From: Nodosilinea nodulosa PCC 7104
Lineage (GTDB): Bacteria > Cyanobacteriota > Cyanobacteriia > Phormidesmidales > Phormidesmidaceae
Direction: 5' to 3'
NCBI RefSeq assembly: GCF_000309385.1
Contig: NZ_JH976537.1
Coordinates: forward strand, 5,503,018 to 5,567,017
Length of the DNA stretch: 64,000 nucleotides
The notes beneath the pieces were generated by a model that saw nothing but the letters and a program-made list of their open reading frames with translations, was not told where the DNA came from and searched no databases. Position numbers and translations under genes: made by a program. Positions 4,341 through 35,084 of the stretch are shown here, piece by piece (within the stretch, counting starts at the first letter, position 1; the number at the start of each line of letters is the position of its first letter).

Positions 4341-9157
<4,817 letters not shown>

Positions 9158-27827: not shown

Positions 27828-28358
27828 ATGGTTGATTTTCACGTAAGTTGGGACGACTACCACCGGGACATTGAAAAGCTGGCCATCGCGATCTACGAAT
27901 CGGGCTGGGAGTTTAACCAGATCGTCTGCTTGGCCAAGGGCGGAATGCGCATTGGCGACACCCTCTGTCGGCTGTTCGATGTGCCCCTGGCCATTTTGTC
28001 CACCGCCTCCTACGGTGGGGCCGACGGTCGCACCCGTGGGGCAATTACCTTTTCCCGCGATCTGAGCATGACCACCCCCAGCCTGGGAAACCAGGTGCTC
28101 ATTGTGGATGACCTGGTCGATTCGGGTTACAGCCTGAAAAAATCCATTGAGTGGCTGCGCCACAAGTACGGCTTCTACATCGAAGACCTGCGCACGGCGG
28201 TGCTGTGGTACAAGGCCGACTCCATCTTTAAGCCCGACTACCACGTGGTCTACCTGCCCGACAACCCGTGGATTCATCAACCCTTTGAGCGCTACGAAAC
28301 CATGACCCCCGCCGAGCTAGCGGCTAGCTATCAGCCGCAGCCGGAGCCTGCGGCTTAG
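27828..28358 (+). CDS. Purine-type phosphoribosyltransferase
   Basis: A 176-residue PRT-fold protein. The core is present: FNQIVCLAKGGMRIGDTLCRLF, then the PRPP-binding loop QVLIVDDLVDSGYSLKKSIEWL (the DD...DSG signature) and VVYLPDNPWIHQPFERYE, a C-terminal motif shared with xanthine/hypoxanthine PRTases of archaea and cyanobacteria. It probably salvages a purine base with PRPP. Its last 35 bases overlap the end of the convergent TPR-CD225 gene. Confidence 0.85.
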   Translation: MVDFHVSWDDYHRDIEKLAIAIYESGWEFNQIVCLAKGGMRIGDTLCRLFDVPLAILSTASYGGADGRTRGAITFSRDLSMTTPSLGNQVLIVDDLVDSGYSLKKSIEWLRHKYGFYIEDLRTAVLWYKADSIFKPDYHVVYLPDNPWIHQPFERYETMTPAELAASYQPQPEPAA

Positions 28359-29517
28359 CTGGCACCACCGGAGCCGGGAGGAGCTGGACCGGAGCAGCGG
28401 AGGCCTCGGGGGTGCCGTAGAGGCGCTGGTAGCCCCAGTAACTCACCAGCAGCGTCACCAGGGTTAGAGACGCAATTCCCCCGGCGCGACACAGTCCCTG
28501 GATGGCCTTAGACGCCCGCAGGGCGGTGATATAGTCGCCCTGTCGGTAGGCCTGGCGCAGGTTCATGGCGTAGGCCAGGGCTGGAATGCCCAGGGGCGGA
28601 AAAATCACGAAGGCGGTGAGCAGCACCCGATGCCATCGAGCCGGGGGGCAGGGCTGCCCTTGAAAGAGCTTGTAGCTGCCCCGCCACTCTACCGTGGGCT
28701 GATCCTGCACCTGGCCGATGAGATCAAAGCTGTGCACATCGTCCAGCTGCCATCGAATGAGCAGGGCGCGAATCTGATTGGGCAGGGTGAAGTAGTTGAT
28801 GCCCACCCCGATGGGGCGATACACCTGAATTTGGAGACCGCCGTCCTGGTACTTGGCTTCGATCGCAATTTGCCGCAGCCCCAGTTCCCTCAGCAGACGC
28901 TGGGAGAGCAGGCGATCGCGGTGGGCCTGGTGCAGATGGTGCAGCTTCAGGCGCGCCTGGTCGAGGTTGAGATCGTTGCAGAGGGCCAGTTCCCAGTTGT
29001 GGGCGGCGGCGGCGGCGTGGCCCAACTGCTCGTGGGCGTGGCCCCGGTGCAGGTAGGCCTCCGCCAGGTTGGGGTTGGCGGCAAGGGCGCTGTCAAAGTC
29101 GGCCAGGGCCGCTGGGTAGTTTTGCTGCCGAAAGTGCAGCAGCCCCCGGTTGTAGTGAATTAGAGCGTGGCCGGGATGGTGCTCCAGGGCCAGTTGCCAG
29201 TCGGCAAAGGCCCTGGCCTGCTCACCCTGCTGGCAGTAGAGCAGGCCTCGATTGCCGTAGGCGCGGGCGCTGGTGGGATCTTGGGCGATCGCAGTGGTGA
29301 AATGCTCCAGCGCGGCGGCGGTATCTCCCCTTTGCCAGTGAATTTTGCCCAGCTCAACGTGAATATCCGCTGGGCAGGGATAGTTGTCCAGGGCCTGGAG
29401 CAACACCGCCAGTGCCGCATCGACATTGCCCTTGCGAATCTGAGTCAGGGCCTGCCGATAGTGATAGCGAGCCTGCTGACGCCGCCACCAGGGGGTAAGG
29501 TAAAGTCCCATGAGCAT
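28324..29517 (-). CDS. TPR protein with C-terminal CD225/dispanin-like membrane domain
   Basis: About 397 residues from the ATG used here (a TTG nine codons upstream, with a GGAAGG site, is an alternative). Residues 20-190 hold four or five TPR units (VDAALAVLLQALDNYP; AALEHFTTAIAQDPTSARAYGNRGL; ALADFDSALAANPNLAEAYLHRG). A middle domain of about 100 residues has no recognised fold. The C-terminus has two membrane helices joined by AYAMNLRQAYRQGDYITALRAS, the pattern of CD225/dispanin domains, then a Pro/Ala tail. CD225 proteins insert in membranes and can alter curvature. It follows the CHAT-FHA cluster on the same strand. Confidence 0.65.
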   Translation of the reverse strand: MLMGLYLTPWWRRQQARYHYRQALTQIRKGNVDAALAVLLQALDNYPCPADIHVELGKIHWQRGDTAAALEHFTTAIAQDPTSARAYGNRGLLYCQQGEQARAFADWQLALEHHPGHALIHYNRGLLHFRQQNYPAALADFDSALAANPNLAEAYLHRGHAHEQLGHAAAAAHNWELALCNDLNLDQARLKLHHLHQAHRDRLLSQRLLRELGLRQIAIEAKYQDGGLQIQVYRPIGVGINYFTLPNQIRALLIRWQLDDVHSFDLIGQVQDQPTVEWRGSYKLFQGQPCPPARWHRVLLTAFVIFPPLGIPALAYAMNLRQAYRQGDYITALRASKAIQGLCRAGGIASLTLVTLLVSYWGYQRLYGTPEASAAPVQLLPAPVVPAKPQAPAAADS

Positions 29518-29760
29518 TGAAACGTAGTGTATAAGGAGAAGCAACCTTCCCCATGGTTCCCTGGGAACCCAGCTCTCTCAGAGAAGCTTTACAAGATCGT
29601 AATCGGGGGCGGCTTCGCCTTCAACCGGAGACTGCGTCGGCGGGAATCGCAGGCCCTAGTATTCGAAGGCTGAAATATCTCCACCGTTTTGGCGCTTGGC
29701 TCCCCTGCTCCCCAGCTCCCTGGCTTGCAGAAACAGTCCCTAAACTTCCGCCTCAAGATA

Positions 29761-30408
29761 CTAGCTTGCGCCCCGCTCCTCCTGAGCCGCTTTGAGGGCC
29801 ACCGAGGCAATCGTCAGGGCCAGCCGCGCCTGCTCCAGGCTAGACAGCGACTCCCAGTCGGCGGCTGGAATCGCCCGCAGGTTTAGCTCTAAAATTTCGC
29901 CACGGCCATCGCGCAAGGAGTAGGCCAGCGGTCGGGCCAGCACCGCCAGGTCATCGAGGTTCCAGCCGGGCAAGGTGTCGCCCACACACTGCACCAGCTG
30001 ATCGATTAAGGGCTGGCCGCTGCGGACCAGGCCGGTGGCCGTGGTGGCCAGCCCTTGCAGCAGCCCGCCGGGCATGCGCCCCTGAAACTGCCGCAGCTGA
30101 TCGAGCACCGAGGTAACTGCTGCCGGGTCCACGGCTGGCGTGCTCTGGGTTGCAGTCTGGGCCGCGCCCATCTGATCGGTCATCTGGGCTGCCAGGATTT
30201 GCCATCCCGCTGCGATCGCGGTGTTGAGATCGCCATCCGCCAGGGCGTCAAACTCCGCTTCGAGGTGGCTCAGGTAGACCTCTACCTCGGGGGCCATCGG
30301 TTGCCATGGGTACGCCGGTTCAGGGTTGAGAATAGCGGCAAGCAAATCGTGTTCGGTGGCCATGGCGGGCTCAGAAGCAGAATTGGGATGGTGGGAAGGC
30401 TGAGTCAT
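29761..30408 (-). CDS. Unknown protein in the CHAT-FHA cluster
   Basis: About 215 residues starting MTQPSHHPNSASEPAMA. The N-terminal part is helical with an acidic stretch (EVEVYLSHLEAEFDALADGDL), then a long Ala/Gln region and a C-terminal helical end (SLEQARLALTIASVALKAAQEE). No signal peptide or membrane helix. I do not recognise a family. It lies 102 bases behind the CHAT-FHA gene on the same strand, so it is a candidate partner or substrate of that protease. The ATG is preferred over an upstream TTG. Confidence 0.55.
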   Translation of the reverse strand: MTQPSHHPNSASEPAMATEHDLLAAILNPEPAYPWQPMAPEVEVYLSHLEAEFDALADGDLNTAIAAGWQILAAQMTDQMGAAQTATQSTPAVDPAAVTSVLDQLRQFQGRMPGGLLQGLATTATGLVRSGQPLIDQLVQCVGDTLPGWNLDDLAVLARPLAYSLRDGRGEILELNLRAIPAADWESLSSLEQARLALTIASVALKAAQEERGAS

Positions 30409-30510
30409 AGCGTTTACTTTAGATGCACGAGATGGTAACAAAACCCGACAAGGGTGGATACATTGCGCTTTCAGGGGATTCCGTACAGGATGAACAATTT
30501 TGTGGTTTTC

Positions 30511-32148
30511 CTAGCAGGTCAGCGTCGACTTGGGGTTACCCTCCAGGGTAAATTCCATTAACTCCCCCTCGGGGCTGCCAAAGCGAAGGGCCGTACCCAG
30601 GGCCAGCGGCACCTCAGCCCGGTGGACGTGGTTCCAGCTTCGCCCGTCAAAGTAGTACGACCCATAGCGTGACATATCGCGTAGATAGTAACAGGTCTCT
30701 TGGACACCGTTGTCAAACTGGGTGCGGCAGAAAATTTCAGCGTGCTGCCCCGACACCCAGGGTTCTAAAATGACCAGATCGTTGTCGGGCAGTCGCCCCA
30801 CCCGCAAATAGCCGTCGTAGAGTCGCCACAGGCGGGTTGGCGTATTCAGGCAGCGCAGCACCGCCGCCTGGGTCGACTGCACATCTTGTCCAGGCAGCTG
30901 AGTCACCGCCAGGGCGACCTCGCGCAGCAGGTGGCCCTCAAACTGGGGATGCTGATAAAGCACCGGCAGCGTCCAGGCCGGGTGGTTAAATCGGTAGGCC
31001 GTCATCAGATGCTGGCGGGCCAGGGCGACCGCCTGGGCCACCGGCTGGCGCTCAGCTAGCCCCCGCGCCAGCACCTGAATAAAGCTCAGCGCCTCGTGGT
31101 CTGTAATCGAGTCGCGCATCGCCAGCACCGCCGGTACGCCGTGGTGCAGCAGCACCTCCGCCAGGCTGCTGCGGGGGATAATCTGCTGATGTTTGAGATC
31201 GGGCTGCGCCCCCCAGCAGGTGTTAAACACTGCCAGGCGAATGCCGTTGCGGGCCAGCCCCTGGGCCAGTTCAGTGCCGCTCAGGCTGCCCCCCTGGCTC
31301 AAAAACAGCAGCCCCCCGTCGGGGGCAGGCACCCCGTGGCCCGCGTAGAAAAACACGTTAAAGTACCCGGTCTCTAGAGCTTTCAGCAGGGTCTTGGCAT
31401 CGGGTTCTAGCAGGGTTTGAACCTGGCAAACCACCGGGCTGGCCCCCTGGTAGCTGAGGCGAGAGGCGCTGAGTTCCAGCAGCTGTTTTAGGGCTTCGGC
31501 CTCCTGGGGCAGCTGCAAGACGTTTTTTGACCCCTCCGCCGTGCCGGGGTCATCCTGGCCCAGCACCAGCAAAATGCGCAAAGAGTTATCGAGCTCGGCC
31601 TCGGGCAGTGGTTCTACGGCGCTGGCCGTGCGGCTAAACAGCACCTGCGGCCCCAGCGACAGAGCCGGACAGCCGGGCTGGGGCTGCATAATCTCCCAGG
31701 GCAGGCTAATCAGTTCCGGGGGACGCACCTCAAGCCGCAGCTTAAGCGGACGATTTTGGCCGATCGCCATGCCCAAGCTGCGCTCCAGGGTTTGCCGAAT
31801 GGGGCCGTCAAACAGCCATTCCCACAGGCCCACCCCCATCCCCTGCATCAGCCGCCCGGTGTTGCCGCCCGCCTCTGCCGCCGGGGCCACCCGGTCGAGC
31901 AGGTCATCGAGGTGAAACTCGGGCACGTAGGCGGAGGGGACATGGGGCACCTGGGGCAGGCCCCGCAGCGAAAAAAACTGCTGCCAGTTTGCCCAGAGTT
32001 GGGCCATCTGGCTATCCCAGAGGCGATCGTGGTGGGCATAGCCGCCTGGGAACGGGCTTTCTAGCACCCAGATCGCGTAGTGGCTGGAGTCAGCCTGGGT
32101 GAGGCGATCGATCGCAAGGTGGAGGGTGAGAGCATCGGACGACAGCAT
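30511..32148 (-). CDS. CHAT protease-FHA domain protein
   Basis: A 545-residue protein. Residues about 120-410 form a CHAT caspase-like domain: LRLEVRPPELISLPWEIM, the His motif FFYAGHG (H271) and the Cys motif VFNTCWGAQ (C311), both catalytic residues present. Residues about 445-540 are an FHA domain (LRVGRLPDNDLVILEPWVSGQHAEI, with R452, S466 and H469 in the phospho-peptide loop positions, then YYLRDMSRYGSYYFDG). FHA domains bind phospho-threonine, so this suggests a protease steered by protein phosphorylation. It starts 46 bases after the PP2C gene and is probably in the same transcript. Function in stress or defence is inferred. Confidence 0.85.
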   Translation of the reverse strand: MLSSDALTLHLAIDRLTQADSSHYAIWVLESPFPGGYAHHDRLWDSQMAQLWANWQQFFSLRGLPQVPHVPSAYVPEFHLDDLLDRVAPAAEAGGNTGRLMQGMGVGLWEWLFDGPIRQTLERSLGMAIGQNRPLKLRLEVRPPELISLPWEIMQPQPGCPALSLGPQVLFSRTASAVEPLPEAELDNSLRILLVLGQDDPGTAEGSKNVLQLPQEAEALKQLLELSASRLSYQGASPVVCQVQTLLEPDAKTLLKALETGYFNVFFYAGHGVPAPDGGLLFLSQGGSLSGTELAQGLARNGIRLAVFNTCWGAQPDLKHQQIIPRSSLAEVLLHHGVPAVLAMRDSITDHEALSFIQVLARGLAERQPVAQAVALARQHLMTAYRFNHPAWTLPVLYQHPQFEGHLLREVALAVTQLPGQDVQSTQAAVLRCLNTPTRLWRLYDGYLRVGRLPDNDLVILEPWVSGQHAEIFCRTQFDNGVQETCYYLRDMSRYGSYYFDGRSWNHVHRAEVPLALGTALRFGSPEGELMEFTLEGNPKSTLTC

Positions 32149-32194
32149 AGGCAGGCCGAAATCAACAGAGCCAAAGCATAAGGTCTGGGGCGAC

Positions 32195-34582
32195 TTAAGG
32201 GGCGCAGCGGCCCGACTGGGCCGGGGTAACCAGCTCTAGAAAGGCGGCGGCTCCGTACAGGTGGCGGGTCTGCACCCAGCCCTCGTTGCCCGGGGCCAGG
32301 AGCCGTTGACTGAGGTCAGGGGCAGGGGCTGAGTTCTGGGCAGCCTCTAAACTTTGGGCCGACTCCTGGGGCTGCTGCTCTAGGGATACCCCAGAGGGAA
32401 TAGAGCAAACCCGCAACCGTACCCAGTCGACATTGTCGGCTGTAGTTTGGCGGCTGACAACCCTGAGCACGCTCCCCGTCGCAACCGATGGCCCGGCAGG
32501 CGCGGCACCCGCTGGGATGGTCGGCTGGGGCTGGAGCTGTAAGCGGCGATCGCCAGCTATGACCTGCTGCGCCTGCCAGTAGGACCCGACGGGCACGTCA
32601 ACGGTAGCGGCCAGGGCGGCGGCAGGCAGCGGCTGGCCCGCCAGGGCCAGCGGCCACCGAGCCTGGAGGGACTGAAATGCGATCGGGGCGGGCAGGCGCC
32701 GACTCAGGGCCAGACCCAGCGCCCCTAGAATAGCCAACACTACAGCTATTCCCCCTAAAAATGGTCCCCAGGCCATCCCTGAGCGGGTAGAGGCCGATGC
32801 CATGTCGGCCTGAGAGGCCGGAGCCACAATCCGGGTAGAGGGCGGCACTGCCCCTGAGAACGACGATCGGGCCGTGCCTGGGGCATGATCGGGCGCGGTG
32901 ACAGCCTGCCCCAGCGGGCCAAGGGGCAGGGTGGGCAGCGGGCTAGGCCGGGGCATAAATCGCATTAGCCCGACGGTGACATTGTCGTGGCCATTGAGCC
33001 GATTGGCCTGCTGAATCAAGGCGTCAACGGTGAGGCTGAGGGGATCGGGGGTGGTGGTCAGAGGGGCAACCAGGTGCGGGGCTAGGGCTTCAACCCGGTC
33101 GTAGTCGCTCAGCCCGTCAGAGCAGAGCAGCAGCGCTGCCCTATCGTCCAGCAGGAGGTGCTGCACCGAGGGGTAGAGAAAGTCAGAGTCGCTAATGCCG
33201 AGGGCCTGAATTAAAGCGCCGCCGCTGGGCAACTGCACCGCCTCCGAGTAGAGAGCGTAGCCCATCTGGGCCTCCCGCGAGGCCACGTCGTCATCGACGG
33301 TAATTTGGTAGCAGGTGTGGGGGCTAACCCGGTAGGCGCGGCTGTCGCCGACGTGGGCAATGGAGACGTAGGGGAAGTGCACCAGGGCCACCACCACCGT
33401 CGTACCCATGCGGGCGCGGGCGGAGCGATGCTCGTCGTTGTTGCGGGCGGCGATCGCGTCGTTGGCTAAGACGATCGCCTGCCGGAGGCGCTGGGCGATC
33501 GCCTCGGGAGGCAGGTGGGGGCGCTGGGTCAGGGGTTCTAGCTCCTCCTGCAGCAGCTTAATCGCGGTTTGGGAGGCCACATTGCCCTGCTCATGACCGC
33601 CGATGCCGTCGCAGACCAGCAGCAGGGGCGGTGTTTCCAGGTTCTCGGCCCGGCCAGACAGCTGCTGCTGGCGCGGCTCTTTTTCGGGGTAGCAGGCGTC
33701 TTCGTTGCGATCGCGGGTTGGCCCCTGATCGGTATCCGCCGCCCAGTCCACCGCCACCAGCAGGCCCTGGGCAAGGGTTTGAATCGCCCCCTCCAGCTCA
33801 GCCACCAGCCCCTTCGCGGAGGCCATCTGCCCCTCTTTGAGCGCCTTCAGCAGCCAGCCCAGGTAGGCCCGCACCGGTGGCTGCGCCGTCGCCAGCAGTC
33901 CCTCCCAACTCTGCCCCAGCTGAACCAGGGTGGGGAGCGCCTCATCGGCGGTCAGGGCGGTCAGCCGCAGCAGCGCTCCGTCAGTCCGGAGTTCGTCTTG
34001 CAGCAGCAGGGTCGTAGCTACTCGCTCTGCGATCAGATCTGGCCACAGAGCGGCAATTTGGCGCAGCCAGTTGAGCTGCTGTAGGGCCGAGCCCCTGGGC
34101 CAAACCTGGGCCAGAGGCGGCAGCAGCGCCACTTCCACCTTGCCCTGATCCGGCGGCAACCCCTCTTTTGCGGCGGCTGGGAAGCTGGGACGAAAGCTGA
34201 TTGGGGCCATGTCCAGCAGCAGCACCGTCGTCGCTAGCCCCGTCTGCTCTGGGGTCAGGTAGGCGTAAGGCCGGGGCACATGCTGAGCCAGCGAAAACAG
34301 CTTCAGATAGGTTAGAACCGTAGCCGGAATCTGCTCCAGGGGGGGAATGGGGTTGTCGGGTCGAGTGTCTAGCCAGAGCCGATGCCCCGCCGGGGAAGGG
34401 TTTGACCCATCGCCCCAGACCAGAAACCGCCCGGCGATCAGCGTCCCAGGGCGCGATGTCAGAGGCCCATTTTCTCCGACCGCCAGCAAAAATCGGTATA
34501 GCAGGGGAGTCTGGCAGACCTTACAGCGGCTGGCAGGGGGGGTCGCAATCGACCGACAGGAGGAATTAGAGCACTGGATCAC
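32195..34582 (-). CDS. Membrane PP2C phosphatase with N-terminal zinc-ribbon motif
   Basis: A 795-residue protein. The N-terminus has Cys4, Cys9, Cys20 and Cys23 in a zinc-ribbon layout (CSNSSC...CKVC), followed by about 240 residues of a helical, kinase-accessory-like region. Residues about 275-535 form a PP2C phosphatase with DRNEDAC, VCDGIGGH (D325), MGTTVVVA, HVGDSRAYRV, LCSDGLSDYD and GHDNVTVGLM. One membrane helix lies near 605-628 and the rest is a probable extracytoplasmic part of about 165 residues. The start is GTG with AGGAT before it. It likely reverses Hanks-kinase phosphorylation and may control binding by the FHA domain encoded next to it. Confidence 0.88.
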   Translation of the reverse strand: MIQCSNSSCRSIATPPASRCKVCQTPLLYRFLLAVGENGPLTSRPGTLIAGRFLVWGDGSNPSPAGHRLWLDTRPDNPIPPLEQIPATVLTYLKLFSLAQHVPRPYAYLTPEQTGLATTVLLLDMAPISFRPSFPAAAKEGLPPDQGKVEVALLPPLAQVWPRGSALQQLNWLRQIAALWPDLIAERVATTLLLQDELRTDGALLRLTALTADEALPTLVQLGQSWEGLLATAQPPVRAYLGWLLKALKEGQMASAKGLVAELEGAIQTLAQGLLVAVDWAADTDQGPTRDRNEDACYPEKEPRQQQLSGRAENLETPPLLLVCDGIGGHEQGNVASQTAIKLLQEELEPLTQRPHLPPEAIAQRLRQAIVLANDAIAARNNDEHRSARARMGTTVVVALVHFPYVSIAHVGDSRAYRVSPHTCYQITVDDDVASREAQMGYALYSEAVQLPSGGALIQALGISDSDFLYPSVQHLLLDDRAALLLCSDGLSDYDRVEALAPHLVAPLTTTPDPLSLTVDALIQQANRLNGHDNVTVGLMRFMPRPSPLPTLPLGPLGQAVTAPDHAPGTARSSFSGAVPPSTRIVAPASQADMASASTRSGMAWGPFLGGIAVVLAILGALGLALSRRLPAPIAFQSLQARWPLALAGQPLPAAALAATVDVPVGSYWQAQQVIAGDRRLQLQPQPTIPAGAAPAGPSVATGSVLRVVSRQTTADNVDWVRLRVCSIPSGVSLEQQPQESAQSLEAAQNSAPAPDLSQRLLAPGNEGWVQTRHLYGAAAFLELVTPAQSGRCAP

Positions 34583-34736: not shown

Positions 34737-35084
34737 CTATCCTGCGGACTCCTCGGCCTCAACCCGCGGCAGGCCCATGCTGTAGTTCAGCGCCCGGCTC
34801 TTGAGGTTGTAGCTAATCGCGCCCTGCTGCAGGAGCTGTCGCACAAAATGCTCTAGATCTGAGCCAATGCGGCGCAGGTTGTAGTCGGTTAAATCTTCTC
34901 CAGCGGCGGCATCGACCAGGCGGTCAAACTCGGCATAGACGGCCTTAAGGGCGTCTTCAGACCAGTTGAACTCATTGTCGGGGTCGATATCTAGGGTGAG
35001 CTTATCGTCGCTGGGCACCAGTTCATTGTTGGCAACGATCGCTGTATAGATATGGACGTGGCGGGTAGTCGATTTGAGCATCAT
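34737..35084 (-). CDS. ndhM: NAD(P)H-quinone oxidoreductase subunit M
   Basis: A 115-residue subunit of the cyanobacterial NDH-1 complex, with LKSTTRHVHIYTAIVANNELVPSDDKLTLDIDPDNEFNW, the hallmark of NdhM, and AISYNLKSRALNYSMGLPRVE at the end. NDH-1 passes electrons from ferredoxin to plastoquinone around photosystem I and in respiration; NdhM belongs to the oxygenic-specific peripheral arm. The family start (M-x-L-K-S-T-T-R-H) supports the ATG chosen. Confidence 0.95.
   Translation of the reverse strand: MMLKSTTRHVHIYTAIVANNELVPSDDKLTLDIDPDNEFNWSEDALKAVYAEFDRLVDAAAGEDLTDYNLRRIGSDLEHFVRQLLQQGAISYNLKSRALNYSMGLPRVEAEESAG

Follow-up and report, generated by a model that had tools for sequence, protein, structure and literature searches.

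In a 64,000-nucleotide stretch of DNA from Nodosilinea nodulosa PCC 7104 (contig NZ_JH976537.1, positions 5,503,018 to 5,567,017; hereafter the window), we identified three linked minus-strand genes that may form a proteolytic switch paralogous to the HetF/PatU system. The proposed components are a CHAT-FHA protease, a short PatU-like substrate, and a membrane PP2C phosphatase, and we assign this reading a probability of roughly 50%. It is carried by computational observations: the genes are linked, the protease is kin to HetF and the small protein a remote homologue of PatU, the two occur in matched pairs across genomes, and the active sites are conserved. In the proposed mechanism, CHAT-FHA would be a cysteine protease in which an FHA phosphothreonine reader takes the place of the transmembrane (TM) and TPR parts of HetF, and the PatU relative, a protein of 215 residues, would be cleaved by it much as PatU3 reportedly is by HetF. 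The FHA domain would read a phosphorylation state set by the membrane PP2C, possibly that of a conserved threonine in the phosphatase's own linker before the membrane helix. The balance between kinase and phosphatase would then recruit or release the protease, which would set the level of the PatU-like regulator. The threonine motif, together with the FHA domain and a linked PP2C, suggests that Ser/Thr phosphorylation controls the switch.

An earlier note made from the DNA letters had described four minus-strand open reading frames (ORFs) at this position, and our ORF and Pfam scans recovered all of them with the sizes and domains it gave (E-values of 2.6e-11 for PP2C_2, 1.9e-19 for CHAT, 2.7e-8 for FHA, and 3.8e-8 for CD225, with TPR also present in the fourth ORF). 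The PP2C gene (32195 to 34582) encodes 795 residues arranged as a zinc-ribbon-like segment, an N-terminal region of unknown fold, the PP2C domain, a linker, one predicted TM helix, and a C-terminal tail. The CHAT-FHA gene (30511 to 32148; 545 residues) starts 46 bases after the PP2C stop, as the note had it. The gene for the 215-residue helical protein, the predicted substrate or partner of CHAT-FHA (29761 to 30408), has its ATG at 30408, 102 bases past the CHAT-FHA stop.

We surveyed 244 genomes of the phylum, taking E below 1e-100 as the threshold for CHAT-FHA orthologues. Per genome, only the best first-look candidates were scored (judging by the matches listed, at most 5 for CHAT-FHA, 12 for the 215-residue protein, 4 for PP2C, 8 for PatU, 7 for HetZ, and 3 for the HetF model), so a gene counted as absent is one missing from that many candidates. 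For co-occurrence, HetF was taken from the second matches of the CHAT-FHA search. Alignments comprised 57 of 59 CHAT-FHA proteins (two incomplete ones were left out), 32 of 50 PatU, 22 of 34 PP2C, and 20 of 54 HetF proteins. Gene neighborhoods were examined in two overlapping sets, a diverse set of 58 CHAT-FHA loci from genomes other than that of the window and a named set consisting of the best 80 of 413 relatives, nearly all Nostocales by title. All counts treat related genomes as independent.

CHAT-FHA orthologues were detected in 59 of the 244 genomes (the window's own included), spanning 17 family codes, with one full-length copy per genome. The 215-residue gene lies directly downstream in 44/58 diverse loci and in 80/80 named loci. 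A PP2C of the same type is found upstream on the same strand in 33/58 diverse loci; among the named loci it is directly upstream in 76/80 and further upstream in two more. The order ndhM-PP2C-CHATFHA-215-residue gene is kept in 72/80 named and 25/58 diverse loci. We regard ndhM (34737 to 35084, minus strand; Pfam NdhM 1.4e-53), which is present in 26/59 loci with the window included, as a conserved upstream neighbor that is no part of the proposed switch. Further neighbor clusters recur in up to 31/59 loci, mostly on the opposite strand or several kilobases away; in 21 loci, one of them lies some 5 kb upstream on the strand of the set. These clusters were surveyed at the level of counts and first residues, and a kinase may be among them.

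The fourth gene of the cluster, encoding a TPR-CD225 protein (28324 to 29544, minus strand), does not share this conservation. No CD225 part was found beside CHAT-FHA in the 58 diverse loci (E ≤ 1e-4) or in the 80 named loci (E ≤ 1e-5), and a tblastn search with the whole protein gave only weak matches to the TPR part at two loci (L041 and L087), 5 to 8 kb from CHAT-FHA. We therefore rejected it as a member or output of the system; it is most likely a chance neighbor. Thus, the expectation in the earlier note that the genes stay together in relatives holds in order and strand at most loci for PP2C, CHAT-FHA, and the 215-residue gene and fails for TPR-CD225. Because those three genes are linked in most loci and CD225 in none, we take the module to be three genes, and the membrane output through CD225 that the note proposed falls with the fourth. 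The TPR-CD225 gene overlaps a convergent phosphoribosyltransferase gene (27828 to 28358, plus strand) by 35 bases, at 28324 to 28358.

The CHAT-FHA protein passed the curated cut-offs for both of its domains, scoring 70.6 bits for CHAT (PF12770; cut-off 24) and 34.6 bits for FHA (PF00498; cut-off 20.7). The pair of intact residues highlighted from the sequence, His271 and Cys311, is indeed present in the CHAT domain (predicted catalytic codons at 31336 to 31338 and 31216 to 31218, respectively). Both residues are invariant in 57/57 aligned orthologues and align with His and Cys in 20/20 HetF proteins. AlphaFold modeling on the 57 orthologues returned a complete CHAT protease fold and an FHA fold, with a mean predicted local distance difference test (pLDDT) score of 82.8. 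The CHAT model matched Craspase TPR-CHAT with a Z score of 23.6 (309 residues, 3.7 Å) and human separase with a Z score of 22.5; protease-fold matches span residues 1 to 405, at Z of about 15 to 24. The FHA domain (residues 449 to 524; 30577 to 30804) matched the FHA domain of EmbR with a Z score of 15.1. At the phosphothreonine-contact positions of FHA domains, the picture is mixed: Gly451 and Ser466 are conserved in 57/57 orthologues and Arg452 and His469 in 55/57, but the Asn expected in the NGT loop is mostly replaced.

Among curated families, HetF (NF045509) gave the best match to the CHAT part (E = 1.6e-44), confined to residues 104 to 422. CHAT-FHA does not pass the cut-off of that family (152.4 bits against 1200), and its CHAT part shares 32 to 39% identity with HetF matches, in alignments that mostly span some 300 residues. 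A quick tree built from 54 CHAT domains placed 21 CHAT-FHA proteins (support 98) and 20 HetF proteins (support 95) in adjacent groups. This tree omits two of the eight canonical CHATs as well as a partial CHAT from the window's genome, and one CHAT-FHA row (L046) was shortened. Two long branches, a TIR-CHAT protein from the window and another CHAT from the same genome, share the open node with CHAT-FHA and HetF, so a strict sister relationship between the two groups is not shown. These sequence comparisons make CHAT-FHA a diverged relative of HetF. A literature search that judged papers on titles, opening lines of abstracts, and counts of terms, and that most subscription papers lay outside of, brought up none recognizable as a paper on a CHAT-FHA protein.

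The earlier note had called the 215-residue protein unrecognized. This stands for the window copy at the level of Pfam and NCBIfam, neither of which gave a match, and scanning 45 family members individually against Pfam yielded no family, only single weak matches. A profile of these 45 members searched against the Protein Data Bank (PDB) found nothing beyond two helical designs (E 0.3 to 0.4). The predicted structure is helical (pLDDT 85.6) and had no PDB structure match, the best being a Z score of 5.0 on one long helix; the protein may nonetheless have a known fold. At the profile level, homology to PatU was found. In genome G042, we located HetZ (648 bits; cut-off 550) and an ORF that overlaps its end, which we identified as PatU because the published gene order is hetZ-patU (PMC7377430). 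The 215-residue profile ranked this ORF first among the ORFs of three HetZ-type loci, with an E-value of 8.5e-4.

Further profile comparisons support this relationship. Alignment of the two families with hhalign gave a probability of 82 and a P value of 1e-5 over 99 columns, with a score of 43.4. Reversing PatU lowered the score to 24.3 and reversing the 215-residue family lowered it to 15.6, and 99 of 100 column shuffles scored 25.1 or less; the remaining shuffle scored 131, in an alignment of 5 columns at an end that we took as an artifact. Reciprocal hidden Markov model (HMM) searches were run on a set of 5,695 ORFs (5,167 distinct) from the collected loci that is rich in both families (134 distinct members of the 215-residue family and 50 distinct PatU). 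All of the top 50 distinct non-self matches of the PatU HMM belonged to the 215-residue family (best E-value 1.6e-6), and PatU made up 25/25 of the top 25 and 38/50 of the top 50 matches of the 215-residue HMM. When the PatU profile was searched against the 244 genomes (E ≤ 0.1; at most 8 candidates scored in each), PatU turned up in 54 of them, and only three other matches were obtained: the 215-residue genes of G185 (0.0026) and G149 (0.0081) and an N-terminal PatU fragment in G074 (0.078). By eye, both families show, in order, [FY]PW, helices near KLV/QLV and LFP/LP, an Arg, and a closing helix that contains [EQ]..[AM]; only what follows [FY]PW lies within the statistical match. The window gene is not directly downstream of hetZ and instead follows CHAT-FHA, as do 44/58 others. 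Taken together, the profiles show that the 215-residue protein is a remote PatU relative. Stop codons break the patU region in many genomes of one family, L235, L236, and L244-L249 among them, and these interruptions fit the published split into patU5 and patU3 in Anabaena.

HetF is reported to cleave PatU3 and thereby to hold down a negative regulator of differentiation, one that restrains division as well (PMC12288457), and it is described as a divisome component (PMC8406250). The pair in the window resembles HetF/PatU3 of Anabaena sp. PCC 7120 in having a CHAT protease with His and Cys, a partner of the PatU family, and matched phyletic pairing. It differs in that HetF has TM and TPR parts, according to a figure legend (PMC8406250), whereas CHAT-FHA has an FHA domain; in addition, the CHAT-FHA partner is short, its gene in the window is not next to hetZ, and a PP2C gene is linked. 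The earlier guess that the 215-residue protein is a substrate gains indirect support, because the protein is homologous to PatU, a reported HetF substrate, and because CHAT-FHA is related to HetF. Given its kinship with HetF, CHAT-FHA most likely cleaves its PatU-like neighbor.

The distribution of the genes across genomes is consistent with an obligate partnership. CHAT-FHA was found in 59/244 genomes and the 215-residue gene in 61/244, with both in 58 (Jaccard index 0.94); one genome (G237) has only the protease and three (G005, G123, and G207) only the 215-residue gene. The HetF/PatU pair is matched similarly, with both present in 53/244 genomes and one genome each carrying only HetF (G022) or only PatU (G051; Jaccard index 0.96 for the pair). 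Cross pairs between members of the two systems gave Jaccard indices of 0.79 to 0.80. Seven genomes have CHAT-FHA and the 215-residue gene without HetF and PatU (G095, G097, G235, G105, G143, G131, and G111), and three have HetF and PatU without the CHAT-FHA pair (G033, G045, and G135). These dissociations fall in four family codes, three with the CHAT-FHA pair only (f6, f21, and f23) and one with HetF and PatU only (f9). The HetF family model found the same 54 HetF genomes plus G005, in which only the C-terminal half matched; 26/54 genomes exceeded the HetF cut-off of 1200 bits, and the 28/54 below it, at 434 to 928 bits, are called HetF by similarity. HetZ or HetZ-related genes occur in 55/244 genomes, exactly those with HetF or PatU, and none was found in the CHAT-FHA-only genomes among the at most seven candidates scored in each. 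CHAT-FHA and the 215-residue gene are not neighbors in 13 of the 58 genomes carrying the two, so their pairing is more than linkage. Genome G005 (places L207 5397-9107 and G005:C28:53502-54332) gave no PatU or HetZ match either.

Near-complete co-occurrence fits any obligate partner. The PatU-like protein could accordingly be a dedicated regulator of CHAT-FHA, whether inhibitor, activator, or adaptor, as securin is to separase, with the true substrates elsewhere. Separase and Craspase both have a dedicated protein partner or substrate. The likeness to separase/securin and to Craspase (Csx29 with Csx30) lies in the protease fold over CHAT-FHA residues 1 to 405; we found no kinship between the partners, and CHAT-FHA has an FHA domain instead of TPR or RNA-guided control. 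In favor of this reading, PatU3 itself interacts with HetZ in two-hybrid and pull-down assays (PMC7377430). On the other hand, the related pair HetF/PatU3 is reported as a protease and its substrate, and loss of the protease should have taken a pure inhibitor with it, unlike what is seen in G005, the single clear case. We consider a purely regulatory role possible, if less likely, and retain the PatU-like protein as the predicted substrate.

The PP2C domain of the phosphatase scored 43.9 bits (curated cut-off 24), the best PDB sequence matches of the protein are PP2C phosphatases, and the metal-binding acids E294, D295, D325, D489, and D533 are invariant in 22/22 aligned sequences. The N-terminus had been described as zinc-ribbon-like; its cysteines at positions 4, 9, 20, and 23 (34514 to 34573) are invariant in 22/22, although the window copy itself gave no score with any zinc-ribbon model. 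The idea, formed by eye, that the N-terminal region is a degenerate kinase found no support in profile searches against PDB and Pfam, and we dropped it. Many genomes carry a second or third similar PP2C away from CHAT-FHA (for example, G000:C1:1310074-1311711).

The linker before the predicted TM helix (approximately residues 605 to 627 by hydropathy scan; 32702 to 32770) is variable, and Thr583, in the sequence T-R-I (32834 to 32836), is nevertheless kept in 21/22 aligned PP2Cs. A relaxed motif, T[QKR][VILF] within 35 residues of the TM helix, occurred in 28/34 linked PP2Cs (shuffled expectation 0.15) and in 71/77 scored copies from the 80 named loci, of which two lack a PP2C and one lacks the end motif (shuffled 0.19). 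It was found in 0/8 paralogues in CHAT-FHA genomes (shuffled 0.06) and in 2/19 copies from genomes without CHAT-FHA (shuffled 0.12), G005 being included and negative; the two positives (L317 and L319) are at chance level. Unlinked copies in CHAT-FHA genomes carried the motif more often than copies from genomes without CHAT-FHA (7/14 vs 2/19; Fisher P = 0.019). A stricter form that we tried first, [KR]T[QKRT][VILQR], was present in 24/34 linked PP2Cs, 64/76 named copies, 0/5 paralogues, 0/6 copies from genomes without CHAT-FHA, 1/4 unlinked copies, and 0/1 in G005, counts in which the end motif was missing in seven sequences (L306, L309, L312, L317, L319, L128, and L191). Since the form was relaxed and sequences were added after the strict counts had been seen, the linked count depends on how the motif was chosen; having been read off the linked set, the motif is a lead and no demonstration. 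The conserved pattern makes the linker threonine a candidate ligand of the FHA domain.

Several observations weigh against the proposed switch. This type of PP2C is more widespread than the protease (88 vs 59 of 244 genomes), it was not found adjacent in 25/58 loci, one of which starts at a contig end, and the relaxed motif occurs in only 7/14 unlinked PP2Cs of CHAT-FHA genomes (shuffled 0.11). In the NGT loop of the FHA domain, 55/57 orthologues have Tyr or Phe in place of Asn. Homology to PatU is remote, at 24% identity over the 99 columns, and corresponds to PatU residues 128 to 226; the C-terminal region of PatU is missing (215 vs 328 residues), and the best PatU E-value from the 215-residue family's own HMM is only 7.4e-4. 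Genome G005 keeps the 215-residue gene with CHAT-FHA absent from between it and PP2C, and G123 and G207 also have that gene without CHAT-FHA. Because the genomes are related, the pairing rests on few independent events.

Some of these points would fit a smaller unit, in which only CHAT-FHA and the PatU-like protein work together and the PP2C is an old co-transcribed neighbor without a functional tie. Adjacency is weak proof by itself, since ndhM is a comparably constant neighbor, and 30 genomes carry this PP2C type without CHAT-FHA; half of the unlinked copies lack the motif. Set against this, FHA domains and PP2C phosphatases share phosphothreonine as a target, 58/59 CHAT-FHA genomes have this PP2C type, and the motif marks 28/34 linked PP2Cs and 0/8 paralogues. 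We consider an idle phosphatase unlikely and keep the PP2C in the proposed three-gene switch.

Many bacterial CHAT proteases are thought to act in defense or cell death, and CHAT domains occur in such systems. The window also holds a 1461-residue TIR-CHAT-NB-ARC-TPR protein (4389 to 8774, minus strand) that is defense-like by domain content. Against such a role, the locus has one full-length CHAT-FHA per genome across 17 family codes, mostly the same neighbors, and a phyletic pattern near that of HetF. A PADLOC search with the four cluster proteins gave two weak matches only, both to CHAT-FHA (E-values of 0.0064 and 0.0097). A defense role is thus very improbable. The N. nodulosa genome contains 18 CHAT-domain matches on two contigs.

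In Anabaena PCC 7120, ndhM is presumably all1732, and CHAT-FHA and the 215-residue gene are presumably all1730 and all1729. PrpJ of Anabaena PCC 7120, encoded by all1731, is a PP2C on the plasma membrane that is reported to be involved in heterocyst maturation (PMC6161253), and the window PP2C is plausibly linked to it. Section 10 of another paper lists all1729 among filament-specific core genes, from which its authors then removed it (PMC2821919).

Going beyond the three-gene switch itself, we tentatively suggest that an ancient duplication gave rise to two paralogous circuits, HetF/PatU/HetZ and a phosphorylation-gated one, in which the phosphatase would recruit the protease through the phosphorylated linker threonine and release it by dephosphorylation. 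HetF and PatU3 tie heterocyst differentiation to cell division. The phosphorylation-gated circuit may be the more general form, because it exists in lineages without HetF, PatU, or HetZ. With a defined protease, a candidate substrate, and a candidate phosphosite, the proposal is testable in Nostoc or Anabaena. If it is correct, it would connect regulated bacterial proteolysis with Ser/Thr phosphorylation and make sense of a protein family whose window copy matches neither Pfam nor NCBIfam.

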